Assembly (NCBI GenBank): GCA_904420215.1
Contig: CAJFUR010000021.1
Location: 1 to 42,956, forward strand
Direction: 5' to 3'
DNA length: 42,956 nt
Origin: an uncultured Eggerthellaceae bacterium
GTDB taxonomy: Bacteria; Actinomycetota; Coriobacteriia; Coriobacteriales; Eggerthellaceae
Part shown: in pieces, positions 32,003 to 42,956 of the stretch
Numbering within the stretch: the stretch's first letter is position 1
How the letters are laid out: every line of letters begins with the position of its first letter
Translations under genes and position numbers: made by a program
Notes under the pieces: model-generated
Told to the model about the DNA's origin: nothing
Database searches by the model: none
What the model saw: the letters and a program-made list of their open reading frames with translations, nothing else

Positions 32003-33053
32003 ATGAAGCTGACGATATCAGCTCTTCGAAAAGACGTTCCAAATCCGATTCGTCCTTGAATTCTATTTCAATCTTGTTCTTCCCCTTGGAAGACTTCACT
32101 CTCACGTTCGTCTTCAAAACTTCACGCAGCGTTTTCGCGACCGTCTTGTACGATTGAGGGATGGGTTGACGACTGGAAGCGCTTCCCTCGTTTTTCTTTC
32201 CCGAAAGCAAACGCGCAAGCGCTTCCGCCTCTCTGACGCTGATCTTTTCTTCCATCAGCTTTTCGGTGAGTTTGAGGCGGCCTTCTTTCGATGGAATCGA
32301 CAAAATGGCCCGCGCATGACCTGCTGTGATCTTTTCTTCGAACAACAGCTGTTGGGCTTCTTCCGGCAATTCGAGCAAACGCAAGGCATTGGCAACCGTG
32401 GAGCGCCCTTTCGACATGGCTTGCGCCACTTCGGATTGCGTCATCTTGCGCCGCTCCATCAGTCGGCGGTATCCATACGCTTCCTCGATGGGATTCAAAT
32501 CAGCGCGCTGCACGTTTTCAATCAGAGCGAGTTCGAGCGCCTTGTCATCGTCGGCTTCTTTGATGCGAATCGGCACGGTTTTCATGCCTATGAACTTGCA
32601 TGCCTGCCAGCGCCGTTCTCCTGCAATGATTTGATACGAGTTCTTTTCCACCATGCGAACAAGAATTGGCTGGAGAACGCCATCTTTCTCTATCGAGGCC
32701 GCAAGTTCCTCTATTTCCTCTTGCTTGAAGTTCGTGCGTGGCTGATCAGGGTTGGGAGAAACGTATTCAATGGGAACTTCATCGAGTTTTCGCTCTACAA
32801 TGCCCTTTATTTGCACGTTTTCCTCAACCAACAGATTGTCTTCCACATGCGGCGCCTGCGGCATTGCAACTTCTTGGCGGGATTCGACAGGTTGTACAGG
32901 GGAGACTTCCACTTTGGGCAAATCATCGGACTCCACCGTCACGCGAGGCTTCGGTGCAGGTTTGGGAGCCGGTTCTGCTGCAACTGGCTCCTCGTAGGCG
33001 CCCAAAAGAGAGTTGAGACCGCGGCCCAAGCCGCTTTTCGTGGATTTAGCCAC
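32001..33053 (-). CDS. parB: Chromosome partitioning protein ParB
   Basis: A 350-residue CTP-dependent DNA clamp that loads at parS and spreads for chromosome segregation and origin organisation. The N-terminal ParB/Srx core has the CTP-binding motif GERRWQACK near 126-134; the parS-reading HTH is MTQSEVAQAMSKGRSTVANALRLLELP. The C-terminal lysine/glutamate-rich domain mediates dimerisation. The N-terminal KSGLGRGLNSLL and a Pro/Lys/Val-rich linker precede the core. It starts at GTG 33053 behind AAGGAAGTG and overlaps the 3' end of parA by 8 nt, so the two form an operon. A parS palindrome overlaps its stop. Confidence 0.96.
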   Translation of the reverse strand: MAKSTKSGLGRGLNSLLGAYEEPVAAEPAPKPAPKPRVTVESDDLPKVEVSPVQPVESRQEVAMPQAPHVEDNLLVEENVQIKGIVERKLDEVPIEYVSPNPDQPRTNFKQEEIEELAASIEKDGVLQPILVRMVEKNSYQIIAGERRWQACKFIGMKTVPIRIKEADDDKALELALIENVQRADLNPIEEAYGYRRLMERRKMTQSEVAQAMSKGRSTVANALRLLELPEEAQQLLFEEKITAGHARAILSIPSKEGRLKLTEKLMEEKISVREAEALARLLSGKKNEGSASSRQPIPQSYKTVAKTLREVLKTNVRVKSSKGKNKIEIEFKDESDLERLFEELISSAS

Positions 33054-34023
33054 GGTTGATCACTTCCTTAGCAAGATCGATATACGATTGAGACCCTTTG
33101 CCCGTAGGATCGTATTGGGTAATAGGCTGACCGAAACTGGGAGCTTCGGAAAGTTTCACGGTACGGGGAATCAGAGTTTCAAAGACGGTTTTGCCGAAAT
33201 AACGCCGTACTTCATCCACAACCTGACGCGAAAGCGTGGTTCTTCCATCATACATGGTCAAAAGCACGCCAAAAATATCCAACGTTGGATTCAGGCGCGT
33301 TTTGACACGTTTCATTGAATCAAGAAGTTTTGTCACACCTTCCAGCGCATAGAATTCGCACTGTATAGGAATGAGCAGCTTGTCGGCAGCAACCAGGGCA
33401 TTGACTGTCAAAAGGCCCAAAGAAGGAGGGCAATCGATAAAAATGTAGTCATACTTGCCCCGCATGCTCCCCACAGCATCCTTCAGGCGGTTTTCACGAG
33501 CCATTTCGGAGACAAGTTCCACTTCCGCCCCGGCGAGGTTGATCGTTGCAGGGGCCACATCGAGTCCTTCGCAAACATCGGGGACGATCACGTCTTCAAT
33601 GGGGACTTCGTTCAAAAGAACGTCGTAAATGCAGTTATTCACTTCGCTCTTTTCGATTCCCAAACCACTTGAGGAATTCCCTTGGGGGTCCAGATCCACC
33701 AGAAGCACTTGCTTGCCCATCTCTCCCAGGGCAGCGGAAAGGTTGATCGCCGTCGTTGACTTCCCTACACCGCCTTTCTGGTTGATGATGGCCATGACTT
33801 TCGTTTGGCCGATCACATGTTTGACAGGTGCCTTTTCGGCATACGTCTTCATGACCGGTTTCACGTCACGACTGTCTTCAATGGCAGGCGTCACTTCTCG
33901 TTCAACGACTTCAACTTCTTCGATGTCAATGTGGTCGTTTTCGAACGATTCTTGCATTTCATCTGGCTTGACAGTCTTCGGCTCGGTTTTCTTGTCTCGT
34001 TTAAGACTATCGAACAATCCCAC
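33046..34023 (-). CDS. parA: Chromosome partitioning ATPase ParA (Soj type)
   Basis: A 325-residue deviant-Walker ATPase that works with ParB in origin segregation. KGGVGKST (83-90) is the Walker A, with VLLVDLDPQGNSS and YIFIDCPPSLGLLT (switch regions) following. The family normally starts just before the P-loop; here about 73 extra residues precede it, strongly acidic (DEMQESFENDHIDIEEVEVVEREVTP). They could be a protein-binding tail. The GTG start at 34023 has AAAGGGGG 5-6 nt upstream. The promoter is an extended -10 (TGCTATACT) with no clear -35. First gene of a two-gene operon with parB. Confidence 0.95.
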   Translation of the reverse strand: MGLFDSLKRDKKTEPKTVKPDEMQESFENDHIDIEEVEVVEREVTPAIEDSRDVKPVMKTYAEKAPVKHVIGQTKVMAIINQKGGVGKSTTAINLSAALGEMGKQVLLVDLDPQGNSSSGLGIEKSEVNNCIYDVLLNEVPIEDVIVPDVCEGLDVAPATINLAGAEVELVSEMARENRLKDAVGSMRGKYDYIFIDCPPSLGLLTVNALVAADKLLIPIQCEFYALEGVTKLLDSMKRVKTRLNPTLDIFGVLLTMYDGRTTLSRQVVDEVRRYFGKTVFETLIPRTVKLSEAPSFGQPITQYDPTGKGSQSYIDLAKEVINRG

Positions 34024-34051
34024 AGAGGCCCCCTTTCATGGCTTGCGCTCT

Positions 34052-34060
34052 AGTATAGCA
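34052..34060 (-). promoter_or_regulatory. Extended -10 promoter TGCTATACT for parAB
   Basis: On the minus strand TGC-TATACT lies about 30 bp before the parA GTG, about 22 bp from the nearest parS, so ParB binding could influence transcription of parAB. Confidence 0.5.
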
Positions 34061-34082
34061 AACACTTGAACAACCCTAGTCA

Positions 34083-34098
34083 TGTTTCACGTGAAACA
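34083..34098. promoter_or_regulatory. parS site 2, perfect
   Basis: Exact TGTTTCACGTGAAACA inside the 20-bp palindrome CATGTTTCACGTGAAACATG, just upstream of the parA promoter. Confidence 0.95.
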
Positions 34099-34100
34099 TG

Positions 34101-34485
34101 ACAGACCGGCGACGAATTGTTGGAAGTGGAATCTTGTTACCATCGCACCACCATTCGCAGAATATTTCTAACATTCTCCTCATGCCATCCCTCTGCCATC
34201 CTAAACGGACTTTTGCTCACCATTTAAAGAAATAGACATCTTGTTGCTGCTTCTTTTCACGCAATCTTCTTTTCGCTGTCATCCAATTAGTTTCTGTTCC
34301 CTGTTATCATCAGCGAGTGAAACGAGTTGAAGGATCATCTTCGTCATGGCATTCCATTCATAACTGCGTGAGATAATCCCTCGAATCCAGCGTTTAACGC
34401 TTGTACCAGCCATCTAAAAGGAAACTATGGGAAGAAAGCGCAAGACGAAATCATGAAGCTCAAACAATATTTTTTGAGAACAGAA
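34101..34485. other. AT-richer noncoding region between parA and rsmG
   Basis: No credible gene. The only start-like signal is a nine-codon open frame at 34427-34456 behind AAAAGGAAACT, which is too short to support. Base composition is clearly lower in GC than the left half of the window. Confidence 0.4.
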
Positions 34486-34501
34486 TGTTTCACGTGAAAC
34501 A
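34486..34501. promoter_or_regulatory. parS site 3, perfect
   Basis: Exact TGTTTCACGTGAAACA, 400 bp from site 2 and downstream of rsmG. Three perfect copies within 2.6 kb mark the ParB-loading region. Confidence 0.95.
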
Positions 34502-34580
34502 TCATCATGAACCATTTCAAAAACCGGCACGTTTCTTTCCTTCTAAAAGAAAAAAAATCACCTCACTAACAGCCGAATAT

Positions 34581-35243
34581 TCAACAAAGGGGTTTTTTCT
34601 GGGCAAACCCCGCCTTTCGAGGCAGTCTCATTTCTGGCTCGCCAATCTTCTCGAACACCACTATGCAACGTTCCGTTTGTCCATCGCTCAAGACGAAATC
34701 ACGTTTCGAAACGAACCTCATTCCCAACTTCGTTTCCAGAGACTGCACTCCTTCCAGCTCCTCGTCCGACACCTGTGCTTTATAGCAAATCAGGCGACCT
34801 TTCAAACCGAGAAGGGGAGAAGCCAGTTCCATAAGTGACGAAAAACGCGAAAGAGCCCGCGCCGTCAGAACGGAAAAACCGCCTTTCCGTTCTTTTGCCA
34901 AGTCTTCAAGTCTTCCATGATACGTATGCACATGCGAATCGATGCCCAGTTGATCGACCATGCTTTGCACAAGATCGGTCTTCTTCTTCACTGAATCTAT
35001 AAGCAGGGTTTCGCGACCTGTGGCTATGGCAAGGGGAACGCCGGGAAAACCGCCACCTGTTCCCATGTCTCCATACAAGCCAGCTGGTGCTTCTTCCATC
35101 TCCGGCAAACCTGACAGAGAGTCCTCTACGTGAAGCAGCATCCCTTCCTCGTAAGTATCGATTCGCGTCAGGTTGGTAATCTCGTTCGCCTTCAGCACCA
35201 ATCGCAAGTATTCCTCGATTAATTGGCTTTGGGTCTTTTCCAT
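34581..35243 (-). CDS. rsmG: 16S rRNA (guanine527-N7) methyltransferase RsmG
   Basis: A 220-residue SAM-dependent methyltransferase that modifies G527 of 16S rRNA (also called GidB). The SAM motif is GDMGTGGGFPGVPLAIA near 58-74. RLEDLAKERKGGFSVLTARALS (family block with Arg/Ala) and the N-terminal LTRIDTYEEGMLLHVEDSL are typical. The ATG at 35243 has AAAGGAACC about 9 nt upstream. Part of the usual rnpA-yidC-jag-rsmG-parA-parB order, though here separated from jag by 1.37 kb of noncoding DNA. The C-terminal end is basic (RLPRKAGFAQKKPLC). Confidence 0.96.
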   Translation of the reverse strand: MEKTQSQLIEEYLRLVLKANEITNLTRIDTYEEGMLLHVEDSLSGLPEMEEAPAGLYGDMGTGGGFPGVPLAIATGRETLLIDSVKKKTDLVQSMVDQLGIDSHVHTYHGRLEDLAKERKGGFSVLTARALSRFSSLMELASPLLGLKGRLICYKAQVSDEELEGVQSLETKLGMRFVSKRDFVLSDGQTERCIVVFEKIGEPEMRLPRKAGFAQKKPLC

Positions 35244-35279
35244 GAAAATCGGTTCCTTTCCATGTTTTCTATGAAGCGG

Positions 35280-35325
35280 ATACTGAATTCTAAGTGTTGG
35301 GTGTTCAATATTCTTTATTCAGTAT
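35280..35325. repeat. Inverted repeat ATACTGAAT / ATTCAGTAT upstream of rsmG
   Basis: Perfect 9-bp arms at 35280-35288 and 35317-35325, 28 nt apart, in AT-rich DNA just upstream of the rsmG start. Possible operator or promoter structure; nothing more can be said. Confidence 0.45.
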
Positions 35326-35392
35326 TCCTAATCGAAAGTTCAACACCGGACGCCGTACATTAAACATGACGTCTTTTGCCTTTTGAGATTCA

Positions 35393-35624
35393 CAGATCCG
35401 TAAATCTATGAATATGCAGATCTATGGACGCATGCCCTTTCATCTTTCTATCTTTCTATCTTTCTATCTTTCTATCTCTCCAAATCTATAAATCTACAAA
35501 TTTATTGATTTATGGGTTTACGAATCTGCGGATCTATGAATCCATAGATCCGCAGATTCCCGGCTTCCAACTTCTAAGATCTACAGAATTCCAGATTCGC
35601 AAACCTATAAGCTCGCAGATCCAA
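35393..35624. repeat. Degenerate 8-bp tandem repeat array, 29 units
   Basis: The 232-bp stretch divides exactly into 29 octamers, many close to TAAATCTA / CAGATCTA / TGAATCCA, with a block of five near-identical TATCTTTC-type units (35441-35480). From about 35577 the motif shifts by one base. Neighbouring units are often complementary, producing hairpins. An open frame through it encodes only repeat-derived residues. Confidence 0.8.
35522..35559. repeat. 17-bp perfect inverted repeat inside the 8-bp array
   Basis: Arms 35522-35538 and 35543-35559 are perfectly complementary, with a four-base AATC loop. Strong cruciform/hairpin potential. Confidence 0.75.
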
Positions 35625-36245
35625 AACATTATGCCATATTCGCTATAGCCGACATTGAGCCACGAAGGATTTCTCATCTCTTTCGATGATGCCGAATTCC
35701 ATCAATCTATCGTCAAACCACCAGCCGCAGTCACTCTCTCACTGTTATAGACACTTCCTTATGAAAAGTCTCCAATGTCCATCCCCGACAAACGTCTCCA
35801 CCATTGACCATACAGTTTCTATAGTCGAATTCCATCACTAAACGTACTTCCCTTACCGCGCTCAACCGCCAACCGCAATTTTCCTATCAAACTCCACTGC
35901 CGACCATACCGAACATTCTCCTTCGAAAATGACTCCATCCCAACAAAGAACCGAATTCACAAGACTACCCACAACGGTGCCGCTATCGCCACCTGCTATC
36001 CCAACCAGCACTTACATCAAACCAGCCGCTTGTCATAACAAAGCATTTTTTCAAGGCAAACGACAATATGCTTCGCCCTGTGCTTTGAGCAATCCGCTTC
36101 CAGCACTCCTGGAATCACAAGCACCGCAGAGCGGATGGTTTGCAACTTCTGCATCTGCGGTACAGTGCTGTGACGCAGTGAGCAACCCAAATATATGAAA
36201 GAAGGAAAAAAAGAAGGGGAGAGGCGAGAATAGAGAGGAAGGAAT
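35625..36245. other. AT-richer noncoding DNA, no gene recognised
   Basis: About 620 bp without credible open frames or RNA. A segment at about 36120 (CCGCAGAGCGGATGGTTT) resembles two further copies downstream. Confidence 0.4.
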
Positions 36246-39023: not shown

Positions 39024-39146
39024 GGCGGGAGGGTGGGAGCGACGGGCAGCGGGGCGAAACGGAAGGCGGGAGGGTGGGAACGACGAGCGACGGCGAGAAG
39101 CGGAAAGCGGGAGGGCGGAAGGACACCGGCGAGAAGCAGGAAAGGG
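39024..39146 (+). repeat. Three 41-bp G-rich tandem repeats
   Basis: Units begin near 39024, 39065 and 39106; each starts GCGGGAGGGYGGRA and the first 15 bases of units 1 and 2 are identical. The plus strand is almost purely purine with runs of three G's, so quadruplex or triplex formation is possible. Surrounding 38915-39240 is similarly G-rich and no supportable gene is present; an open frame across it is repeat-derived. Confidence 0.65.
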
Positions 39147-39318: not shown

Positions 39319-39730
39319 TTTTCCACAGAACCGGCCTTTCGCATTGTGGAAAAAGTGGAAAACCGGTATTTCATTCATAAAGTGGTGTGGAAAACGCGTA
39401 TATTGCCGTTTTCGTCAGAATTTCCAACGTAAAGGAGAGGCCTTGCGCCCCTCGGTCGGCTTCGATGCCTTTTTCTCGATATATATCGATTGATCAGGTA
39501 TTATTTACAAAACGACGAAGATTACCGCTACGTTTCGCCCTGTAAAGGAAACGCAAACGCCCACTTGACACGACAACTCACCATTACCTTGAATGTTCAT
39601 CTGGGAAAACGATTTCAACGCAAAAGTCAATGAAAATTTCAACAACAGAGAGACTTTTTTCAAGGTTTTCAAGAATCCCTTTCCGTTCCTTTTCCCTGTT
39701 TTCCACATTTTCTGAATAAATTGGGGATAA
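39319..39730. other. Cluster of DnaA-box-like sites upstream of dnaA (possible second origin part)
   Basis: TTTTCCACA (one mismatch from TTATCCACA) at 39319-39327, inverted at 39345-39353 and 39386-39394, again at 39699-39707, and inverted TTATCCCCA at 39722-39730. The segment is AT-rich and lies between rpmH and dnaA, the position of incA/incB of the bipartite Bacillus origin. Confidence 0.6.
39476..39489. repeat. 14-bp AT-rich palindrome TCGATATATATCGA
   Basis: Perfect palindrome in the AT-rich part of the region between rpmH and dnaA; part of the possible origin. Confidence 0.45.
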
Positions 39731-39899: not shown

Positions 39900-40706
39900 T
39901 TGAACGACATGCTGGAAAACCCATCGACACCCACCGAAACAGGCGCTGCGGGAGCCTCGGGCGCATTCGACTTCGCCTACGTTCCCACCGTTGCGCGCAT
40001 TGCCCTGTACGACGACTTGCGCAGCGCGCCGCGCATCATCGAAATACAACCGGCAGGCACGGCGGAGTACATCGAAAACCTCGCTTCGAAAATATACGAG
40101 CAGGCCAAGATGTCAGGGGGAACCATCCCCTACACCGTCATCCGCGAGGTGTCGGAAAACTTCATCCACGCCCGCTTCGCCGAGATCATCGTTTCCATTC
40201 TCGACGGAGGGAACACCATCCGCTTCGCCGACCAAGGGCCGGGGATCTCCCACAAGGACAAGGCGCAGCTGCCCGGATTCACGTCGGCCATAGAACCCAT
40301 GAAGCGCTACATCCGCGGCGTGGGATCGGGACTGCCCATTGTGAAGGAATACCTCGACTACTCCCATGGCACCATTTCCATAGAAGACAACCTGACCACC
40401 GGGGCGGTGGTCACCATCAGCCTCACGGGCGGCGGGTCTGAGGCCGCGGGTGCGGATGCGCGGCCCCAGCAGGCGCGCCCGGCGGTGCCCGCGCCGCCGC
40501 TTTCCACGCGCGAGCGGGAATTCCTTCCTTTCTTCCTCGGGGAGGGGGCGCTCGGCGTCACCGATCTGGTCAACCTGACGGGCGCGCCGGCTTCGAGCAC
40601 GTACGCCACGCTCAAGAAACTCGAGGAAGCGGGATTGATAGAGAAGACGGCCGGACAGAAGCGAATCCTGACCGACCTTGGCTTTCAGGTGGCCAATTCT
40701 TTATAA
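39900..40706 (+). CDS. GHKL ATPase domain fused to a winged-helix DNA-binding domain
   Basis: A 268-residue protein. Residues about 45-180 carry the GHKL nucleotide-binding boxes: EVSENFIHA (N box, 83-91), FADQGPGI (G1, 109-116) and RGVGSGLPIVKEYL (G2, 139-152). There is no HisKA phosphoacceptor or sensor domain, so it is not a normal histidine kinase; it resembles SpoIIAB/RsbW-type ATPases. A Pro/Ala linker is followed by a winged helix (about 203-268, LGVTDLVNLTGAPASSTYATLKKLEEAGLIEKTAGQKRILTDLG). The combination suggests an ATP-responsive DNA-binding regulator; its place just before dnaA suggests a link to replication or cell-cycle control. The start is TTG 39900 (weak GGA 6 nt upstream) or ATG 39909. 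Known as an uncharacterised ATP-binding protein in general terms only; target unknown. Confidence 0.85.
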   Translation: MNDMLENPSTPTETGAAGASGAFDFAYVPTVARIALYDDLRSAPRIIEIQPAGTAEYIENLASKIYEQAKMSGGTIPYTVIREVSENFIHARFAEIIVSILDGGNTIRFADQGPGISHKDKAQLPGFTSAIEPMKRYIRGVGSGLPIVKEYLDYSHGTISIEDNLTTGAVVTISLTGGGSEAAGADARPQQARPAVPAPPLSTREREFLPFFLGEGALGVTDLVNLTGAPASSTYATLKKLEEAGLIEKTAGQKRILTDLGFQVANSL

Positions 40707-40977: not shown

Positions 40978-42549
40978 ATGGACGGCGAAAAGCTCAACCA
41001 GATGTGGGCGGACGTATGCGCCCAAGTGAAGAACTACAACAACATAGACCCTTCGCAGATCAACGCTTTCTTCTCCCGCCTGCAACCGCAGGCCATGAGC
41101 GAGGGCTTCCTCATGCTCACCGCCGACAACGACTTCATCAAAACGTGGATAGAACGCCACTACGTGGACTTCATCAAGCAGGCGCTGCTCGATTTGCACC
41201 ATGTTCCCTTCACCGTGGTAATAGAGGTTGACATAACGGCTCCGGGCGCACAAGGCGCGCAACCGGCTGCGGCGGCGCCGAACCAAGCGGGAGAGGACGG
41301 GCGCGCCGCGCTAGGGGACGAGCCTGCCGCATGGGGAGCACAGCCCGCACAGGATCATGCGCCAGCGGGACGGACGGGTGGCGGAGCCGCTGCGGCGGAA
41401 GGGGCACTCCCGCCCGCCGCCTACTCCGCCGCGAGCATCGCCTTGCAGGAGGACAGGGGAGTGCAAGCCGGCGGGCCTTTCGCCGACGCCGAGGGACTTT
41501 CCTCCGCCTTCACGTTCGAAAACTTCGTCATAGGCGACTCCAACCGCATGGCGTACTCCATGGCCGTGGCTGTGGCCGAAATGCCTGGGAAAGCGCATTT
41601 GAATCCCCTGTTCATCTATGGAAAAAGCGGATTGGGGAAAACCCATCTGATGCGTGCCATCCAAAACTATGTGCATGAAACCATGCCCCAGCTGAGCACG
41701 ATCTACGTCGATTCCGCCGAGCTGCTTTCCGACTACATGGAGGCCTCGGCCGCACACGACAAGGAGAAATCCAGCTACCGGAACTTCAAGACCCGCTACG
41801 AGGAAGCCGACGTGCTGCTCATAGACGACGTGCAGTACCTGCAGGGCAAGAAGCAGACGCTCGACATCGTGTTCCAGATATTCAACAAGTTGACCAGCCA
41901 AGGCAAGCAGGTGGTGCTTTCCGCCGACCGCGCGCCGAAGAACATCGACATAGACGAGCGCTACAAGAGCCGCTTCAACTCCGGCGGCACGTTCGACATC
42001 CAGCCGCCGGAAATAGAAACGAAGCTGGGCATCGTGAAAAGTTTCATAGAAGAGTACCGCGAAAACGAGGGGAAGTCCGATTTCTCCATTTCCGAAGACA
42101 TCCAGATGTACATAGCGGAAAGTTCCAGTTCCAACATACGCGAGTTGAAAAGCGCCGTGACGAAGGTGATCTACCAGATGACGTTCTTCAACCGGCCCGA
42201 CCTGAGCCTGGAAGACGTGCGCACACTGCTGGAGAACCACTTTTCGGGCGGGCCTTCGAAGAGGCTCACCATAGCCGACATCCAAAAGGAAGTGGAGGCG
42301 TTCTTCAAGGTGAGCCACGCCGACCTGGTGGGGAAGAAGCGCACGCGCAACATCATCTACGCACGCCAGATCGCCATCTACCTGAGCCGTCAGATGCTCG
42401 ATTTGCCGTTCAACGACATAGGGAAGAAGTTCAACCGCGACCACAGCACGGTCATGTACTCGGTCACGAACGTGGAAGAGAAGATGAAGGAAAGCCGGGA
42501 ACTACAGGAAGAAATAGAAGCCTTGAAGCAGATCATCCGAGAGATCTAG
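40978..42549 (+). CDS. dnaA: Chromosomal replication initiator DnaA
   Basis: A 523-residue AAA+ initiator. Domain I is about 1-88, domain II is an unusually long, low-complexity Ala/Gly/Pro linker (about 89-175), and domain III has Walker A GKSGLGKT (215-222) and Walker B LLIDDVQYLQ near 272-281. Domain IV ends with the DnaA-box reading HTH and the family signature GKKFNRDHSTVMYSVTNVEEKM. The ATG at 40978 has GGGGAG at suitable distance. It is transcribed toward a DnaA box and AT-rich stretch that probably form oriC, the usual arrangement before dnaN. Confidence 0.97.
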   Translation: MDGEKLNQMWADVCAQVKNYNNIDPSQINAFFSRLQPQAMSEGFLMLTADNDFIKTWIERHYVDFIKQALLDLHHVPFTVVIEVDITAPGAQGAQPAAAAPNQAGEDGRAALGDEPAAWGAQPAQDHAPAGRTGGGAAAAEGALPPAAYSAASIALQEDRGVQAGGPFADAEGLSSAFTFENFVIGDSNRMAYSMAVAVAEMPGKAHLNPLFIYGKSGLGKTHLMRAIQNYVHETMPQLSTIYVDSAELLSDYMEASAAHDKEKSSYRNFKTRYEEADVLLIDDVQYLQGKKQTLDIVFQIFNKLTSQGKQVVLSADRAPKNIDIDERYKSRFNSGGTFDIQPPEIETKLGIVKSFIEEYRENEGKSDFSISEDIQMYIAESSSSNIRELKSAVTKVIYQMTFFNRPDLSLEDVRTLLENHFSGGPSKRLTIADIQKEVEAFFKVSHADLVGKKRTRNIIYARQIAIYLSRQMLDLPFNDIGKKFNRDHSTVMYSVTNVEEKMKESRELQEEIEALKQIIREI

Positions 42550-42568: not shown

Positions 42569-42840
42569 GACTGCGGCATGGAGACGACAAGGAGACGAAA
42601 GGGAAACGAACAAGAGCGGACGGCGGGCCGACAGCGCGGCGCCCCTGCGGTGCGCACGCAAAGACGTTCGGTGGAAACATGACTGAACAACGGCCGAAAG
42701 GAAGCCGAAAACCACCGAAAGACTTGGGAAAGATAATTTCACCCGACTTTCCTGTGGATGGGAAGCGCACGCGATCCACGCGAGCATATGCATAAGATTT
42801 TCCGCGCCGTCAGGGAAAAGGCGAGTTATCCACATTTCCA
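42569..42840. other. Presumed oriC: DnaA box region downstream of dnaA
   Basis: TTATCCACA, a perfect DnaA box, is at 42826-42834; a weaker inverted one (CCATCCACA, 7 of 9) is at 42753-42761. The position after dnaA and before an AT-rich tract is typical of bacterial origins. No gene is present. Confidence 0.75.
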
Positions 42841-42885
42841 CCGTGCTTATTATTGCTATTATTAAAACCTTAGATATATTAAAGG
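42841..42885. other. AT-rich stretch, candidate DNA unwinding element
   Basis: About 45 bp of A/T-dominated sequence (GCTTATTATTGCTATTATTA, then TAGATATATTAAAGG) directly beyond the DnaA box, in otherwise GC-rich DNA. Suited to strand opening by DnaA. Confidence 0.6.
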
Positions 42886-42956
42886 AAACCCAAACCCAAA
42901 CCCAAACCCAAACCCAAACCCAAACCCAAACCCAAACCCAAACCCAAACCCAAACC
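42886..42956. repeat. (AAACCC)n hexamer array, at least 11.8 units, open at the window end
   Basis: 71 bp of perfect AAACCC repeat starting right after the AT-rich stretch and continuing to the last base. The opposite strand reads GGGTTT, a quadruplex-prone sequence. The array is truncated by the window, so true length and right border are unknown. Confidence 0.95.

Follow-up and report, generated by a model that had tools for sequence, protein, structure and literature searches.

What is a long, perfect (AAACCC)n array doing beside the unwinding element of a bacterial chromosome origin? The window (the whole stretch of DNA analyzed, 42,956 nucleotides) is the entire contig C21 of an uncultured Eggerthellaceae bacterium of the gut, and the window end, inside the array, is also the contig end. 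The source genome is a draft of 2.69 Mb in 185 contigs, 84.7% complete with 3.7% contamination. The features at the right end of the window are:

40978 to 42549, plus strand: dnaA, chromosomal replication initiator, 523 aa, with Pfam domains Bac_DnaA, Bac_DnaA_C and DnaA_N; 80% identical to the sister species
42826 to 42834, plus strand: perfect DnaA box TTATCCACA; the same box occurs in Gordonibacter (L043 and L054)
42847 to 42864, minus strand: six DnaA-trio motifs read from the sequence, 12 bp past the DnaA box
42865 to 42885, between the trios and the array: AT-rich tract AAAACCTTAGATATATTAAAGG, which belongs to the unwinding element
42886 to 42956: (AAACCC)n array, C-rich on the plus strand and G-rich, (GGGTTT)n, on the minus strand; cut by the contig end

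The array is a genuine sequence feature. Tandem Repeats Finder reports a perfect (AAACCC)11.8 of 71 bases at 42886–42956 (period 6, 100% matches), upholding the original prediction of at least 11.8 perfect units. The same prediction counted twelve G-triplet runs; in the window 11 are complete (as CCC on the plus strand), and a truncated CC follows. With perfect head-to-tail copies of a unit in the 1–6 bp range, the array is a microsatellite. Not even (AAACCC)2 arose once in 100 shuffles of the sequence. In a sample of 20 contig stretches from the same genome (∼290 kb; three read N), it is the longest perfect microsatellite, about twice the length of any other (runners-up 36 and 33 bp). Elsewhere in the window, an 8-bp microsatellite, (CTTTCTAT)5, lies at 35437–35477, and GC content drops to 0.465 at 33001–36000, over parA and rsmG, most of the window being at 0.63–0.69.

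To the left of the array lies an intact, standard origin core of the basal unwinding system (BUS) type, for which DnaA-dependent unwinding is predicted. By sequence, BUS origins have a DnaA box with at most two mismatches, a spacer of 0–16 bp and then at least three NAN trios (PMC8287927). Here the box is perfect, the spacer is 12 bp and there are six trios, which read TTA TTA TTG CTA TTA TTA on the top strand and thus 3′-NAN-5′ on the bottom strand. Box-to-trio spacers in BUS origins peak at 10–13 bp, a range that includes the spacer of this origin (PMC8287927). AT content peaks at 83% at 42851–42880, and the array begins 21 bp beyond the last trio; the coordinates thus confirm its reported place beside the unwinding element, past an AT-rich stretch and a perfect DnaA box. 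The core is also recognizable in the sister species, two Gordonibacter, Candidatus Aphodovivens and others. GC skew, mostly negative left of the contig break and weakly positive from a few kilobases to its right, is weakly compatible with an origin here.

Four TTTTCCACA boxes, more than chance would give in the window, lie upstream of dnaA at 39319–39707 (39319 and 39699 on the plus strand, 39345 and 39386 on the minus strand). The origin may therefore be bipartite, with these boxes as its second half. Close to them is a 41-bp tandem repeat (2.2 copies, 39024–39115) that contains a G-rich quadruplex motif on the plus strand (39027–39054). Directly upstream of dnaA, between it and the rnpA-rpmH side, a gene at 39900–40706 encodes an HATPase_c domain and a C-terminal winged-helix match, an unusual neighbor.

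Where does the array lead? A genome search found it at two places: the end of C21 and the start of contig C149, which opens with the identical 71 bp on the same strand and in the same phase (L019:1–71). There the last unit is AAACC, followed by GGCG, and the sequence directly 3′ of the array begins GGCGTTCC. A TATAAT hexamer stands 64 bp past the array (L019:136–141), ahead of dnaN (L019:234–1334), and recF, gyrB and gyrA follow (DnaN confirmed by Pfam, the other three named from their sequences). Because C149 starts with the identical, in-phase 71 bp leading into dnaN, the array sits in the dnaA–dnaN interval, and it is within the array that the assembly broke. Joined head to tail, the contigs restore the usual gene order, with the origin core and then the array lying between dnaA and dnaN. 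No other pair of the sampled contig ends (20 stretches, three reading N) has readable sequence that overlaps exactly.

We inferred the true array length, and with it the assembler and k value, from the fit of de Bruijn graph simulations using the real flanks, array lengths from 65 to 299 bp and k of 55, 61, 71, 77 and 81. Both contig ends were reproduced only at k = 71 with array lengths that follow 71 + 6m from 77 bp upwards, which suggests a true length of 71 + 6m and at least 77 bp. The suspicion of a contig break or collapsed repeat was thus well placed, as the overlap with C149 and the simulation both fit one collapsed array.

Repeat reads from another organism or a eukaryotic telomere could instead have been joined onto both contig ends. 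The assembly is a metagenome-like draft with many contigs (185) and some contamination (3.7%), and the array stands at contig ends only. However, gene order places the two ends side by side, and the array agrees between them in strand and phase. The simulation accounts for the break as one collapsed array, and a single sister genome is the closest to both flanks and holds close relatives of both flank proteins (DnaA 80% and DnaN 86% identity). Since the array recurs at the start of C149 and runs into dnaN, it is not a stray contig-end artefact; present on both contigs flanking the break, it largely settles the doubts over an artefact and over its right border, and we regard a misjoin as highly improbable. 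That the array marks a telomere or chromosome end is barely conceivable. Its unit does resemble telomeric repeats and it was found at contig ends, but a telomere at a right end has its G-rich strand running 5′ to 3′ outward, whereas C21 ends in the C-rich strand, and C21 and C149 join head to tail in the usual dnaA–dnaN order. Internal and in the wrong orientation at the C21 end, the array is neither terminal nor directed with its G-rich strand 5′ to 3′ towards the end, so a telomere reading finds no support.

Is the array shared by other origins, as a conserved regulatory element would be? It is absent from the origins of the sister species (L023, genome G039) and the two Gordonibacter (L043 and L054), although the core is present in all three. 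Counting the source genome, (AAACCC)3 occurs in 3 of 138 family genomes and four AAACCC copies in 3 of 398 class genomes; (AAACCC)5 occurs in 1 of 198 phylum genomes, the source genome alone. No AAACCC match lies at oriC in any other genome of these three sets. Three matches elsewhere were set aside: a probable Lys-Pro coding run in G012 (L020), a three-copy stretch at an unrelated place in G113 (L021) and degenerate repeats distant from any origin gene seen in G424 (L106). Upstream of dnaN, 48 relatives have only weak tandem repeats of two to four copies. Twelve viral contigs carry (AAACCC)5, the longest array being 50 bp, and nothing in them points to phage as the source; searching plasmids with dnaA returned no match. 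The check that the original prediction proposed, (AAACCC)n in related Eggerthellaceae, thus came out negative at the origins of the sister species, Gordonibacter and the others checked, and the notion of a conserved origin element falls with the absence of the array from this site in every other genome checked. The array itself is real, but this lack of conservation, which the original prediction had named as a ground for refutation, weakens a functional reading of it.

The spacer that holds the array varies in length. From trio start to dnaN start, the distance is 55–381 bp in the eight relatives in which the trio anchor was found, and 201 bp plus the array in the source genome; given this variation among relatives, this spacer tolerates length change. 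In Adlercreutzia and other Eggerthellaceae (L024–L042, L044, L047–L050), dnaA is inverted relative to dnaN and ∼2 kb away, an arrangement that the genus of the window does not share. Because of this inversion, and because no trio anchor was found within 2 kb in Adlercreutzia and several other genera, such genera say little about the array site.

Could the array nonetheless act at this origin? Its (GGGTTT)n strand has the four runs of at least three Gs with 1–7 nt loops that define a quadruplex motif (regular expression), has a |G4Hunter| of ∼1.5 and, with energy parameters that are those of RNA, gives a predicted fold of consecutive quadruplexes. Motif and predicted fold thus agree with the earlier claim that the strand opposite AAACCC is quadruplex-prone. 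It is also the strand bearing the DnaA-trios and, by analogy with Bacillus subtilis (PMC10201434), would be exposed when the duplex opens. It is the template for leading-strand synthesis at the fork that heads for dnaN; bacterial quadruplex motifs generally prefer the opposite orientation (PMC12581993).

A functional origin element, in which the opened (GGGTTT)n would fold into quadruplexes, block re-closing of the bubble and help or time helicase loading, would draw on the start of the array 21 bp past the last trio, on the trio strand, and on the predicted G-strand fold with its |G4Hunter| value. However, neither the sister species nor any other origin compared has the array, and a G strand placed as leading-strand template, against the bacterial preference (PMC12581993), could hinder that fork. 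We therefore hold this reading to be very unlikely. Much the same goes for a lineage-specific quadruplex element newly acquired by a bacterial origin, where the trio strand would continue into (GGGTTT)n and folding would hold the origin open or time helicase loading; this too seems quite improbable. An effect of the array on initiation is possible, though without support from conservation. An R-loop reading was rejected, as rightward transcription would probably place C-rich RNA at the array, an unfavorable situation.

The array is probably a species-specific hexanucleotide microsatellite that grew through replication slippage within the spacer separating the unwinding element from the dnaN promoter. 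Its seed may have been an AAACC-type sequence bordering the AT tract on its right, where Gordonibacter has AAAGGAAGACC. Slippage would have turned this seed into an array, possibly helped by repeated strand opening, by structures that the G-rich strand may adopt and by the absence of mismatch repair. The array would be tolerated with the DnaA box, trios, AT tract and dnaN promoter all left intact, and is probably length-polymorphic. Any effect would most likely be mild, acting on spacing or via structures that the G-rich strand forms transiently. Slippage is supported by the perfect units, as a recent expansion would give, and by relatives that have no array, a variable spacer length and an intact origin core. 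Two observations count against it: under pure neutrality, an array placed precisely where the unwinding element stops is a coincidence, and the length is about twice that of the next perfect microsatellite in the ∼290 kb sampled.

MutS_I, MutL_C and NucS_C had no match in the source genome (G000) or eight relatives, with positive controls. The link to the array is weak, because relatives share this lack and have no arrays, and canonical mismatch repair acts mostly on loops shorter than 6 nt. Since the relatives share both the repair lack and the strand opening, the expansion seems to have happened by chance in a single lineage. The non-detection agrees with the reported absence of both mismatch-repair systems from Coriobacteriia (PMC5290159).

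A contingency-type length switch, in which unit number would alter dnaN promoter activity or origin–dnaN spacing and generate variable subpopulations, is unlikely. It could build on a long perfect repeat 64 bp upstream of the dnaN TATAAT hexamer in a genome where mismatch repair was not found. Yet dnaN, being a housekeeping gene, makes an improbable contingency gene, the array does not include the promoter hexamer, a promoter scan gave no full sigma-70 site, and the trio–dnaN distance differs widely among relatives with no known effect.

The array offers a natural experiment. A long quadruplex-prone repeat adjoins the unwinding element of an origin that is standard in other respects, and shows what amount of foreign sequence can be accommodated in the spacer that separates this element from dnaN. 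The array is also a warning that short-read assemblies can break at repeat-bearing origins. We know of no quadruplex array described in a bacterial oriC, and our search of the open-licence literature found no paper on such an array there. If functional, it would be the first described, to our knowledge.

How does the locus compare with known systems? Like eukaryotic telomere repeats, its unit combines a G-run with a T-rich spacer; unlike them, the array is internal, has the wrong strand orientation at one contig end and occupies a single bacterial locus. With the quadruplex-prone repeats at eukaryotic origins, as cited in PMC12581993, it shares a G-run array near the initiation site; it differs from the cases cited there in being unconserved, in a folding that is only predicted and in belonging to a DnaA-type bacterial origin. 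The DnaA box, 12-bp spacer, bottom-strand trios, AT-rich DNA and dnaA–dnaN interval are those of BUS origins of the B. subtilis oriC type (PMC8287927, PMC6669920), whereas the long hexanucleotide array directly past the unwinding element sets this origin apart. Bacterial microsatellites (PMC7015867) share its short unit, perfect head-to-tail copies, non-coding position and restriction to a lineage. Compared with these, the array is unusually long for a bacterial hexanucleotide and is placed at the chromosome origin.
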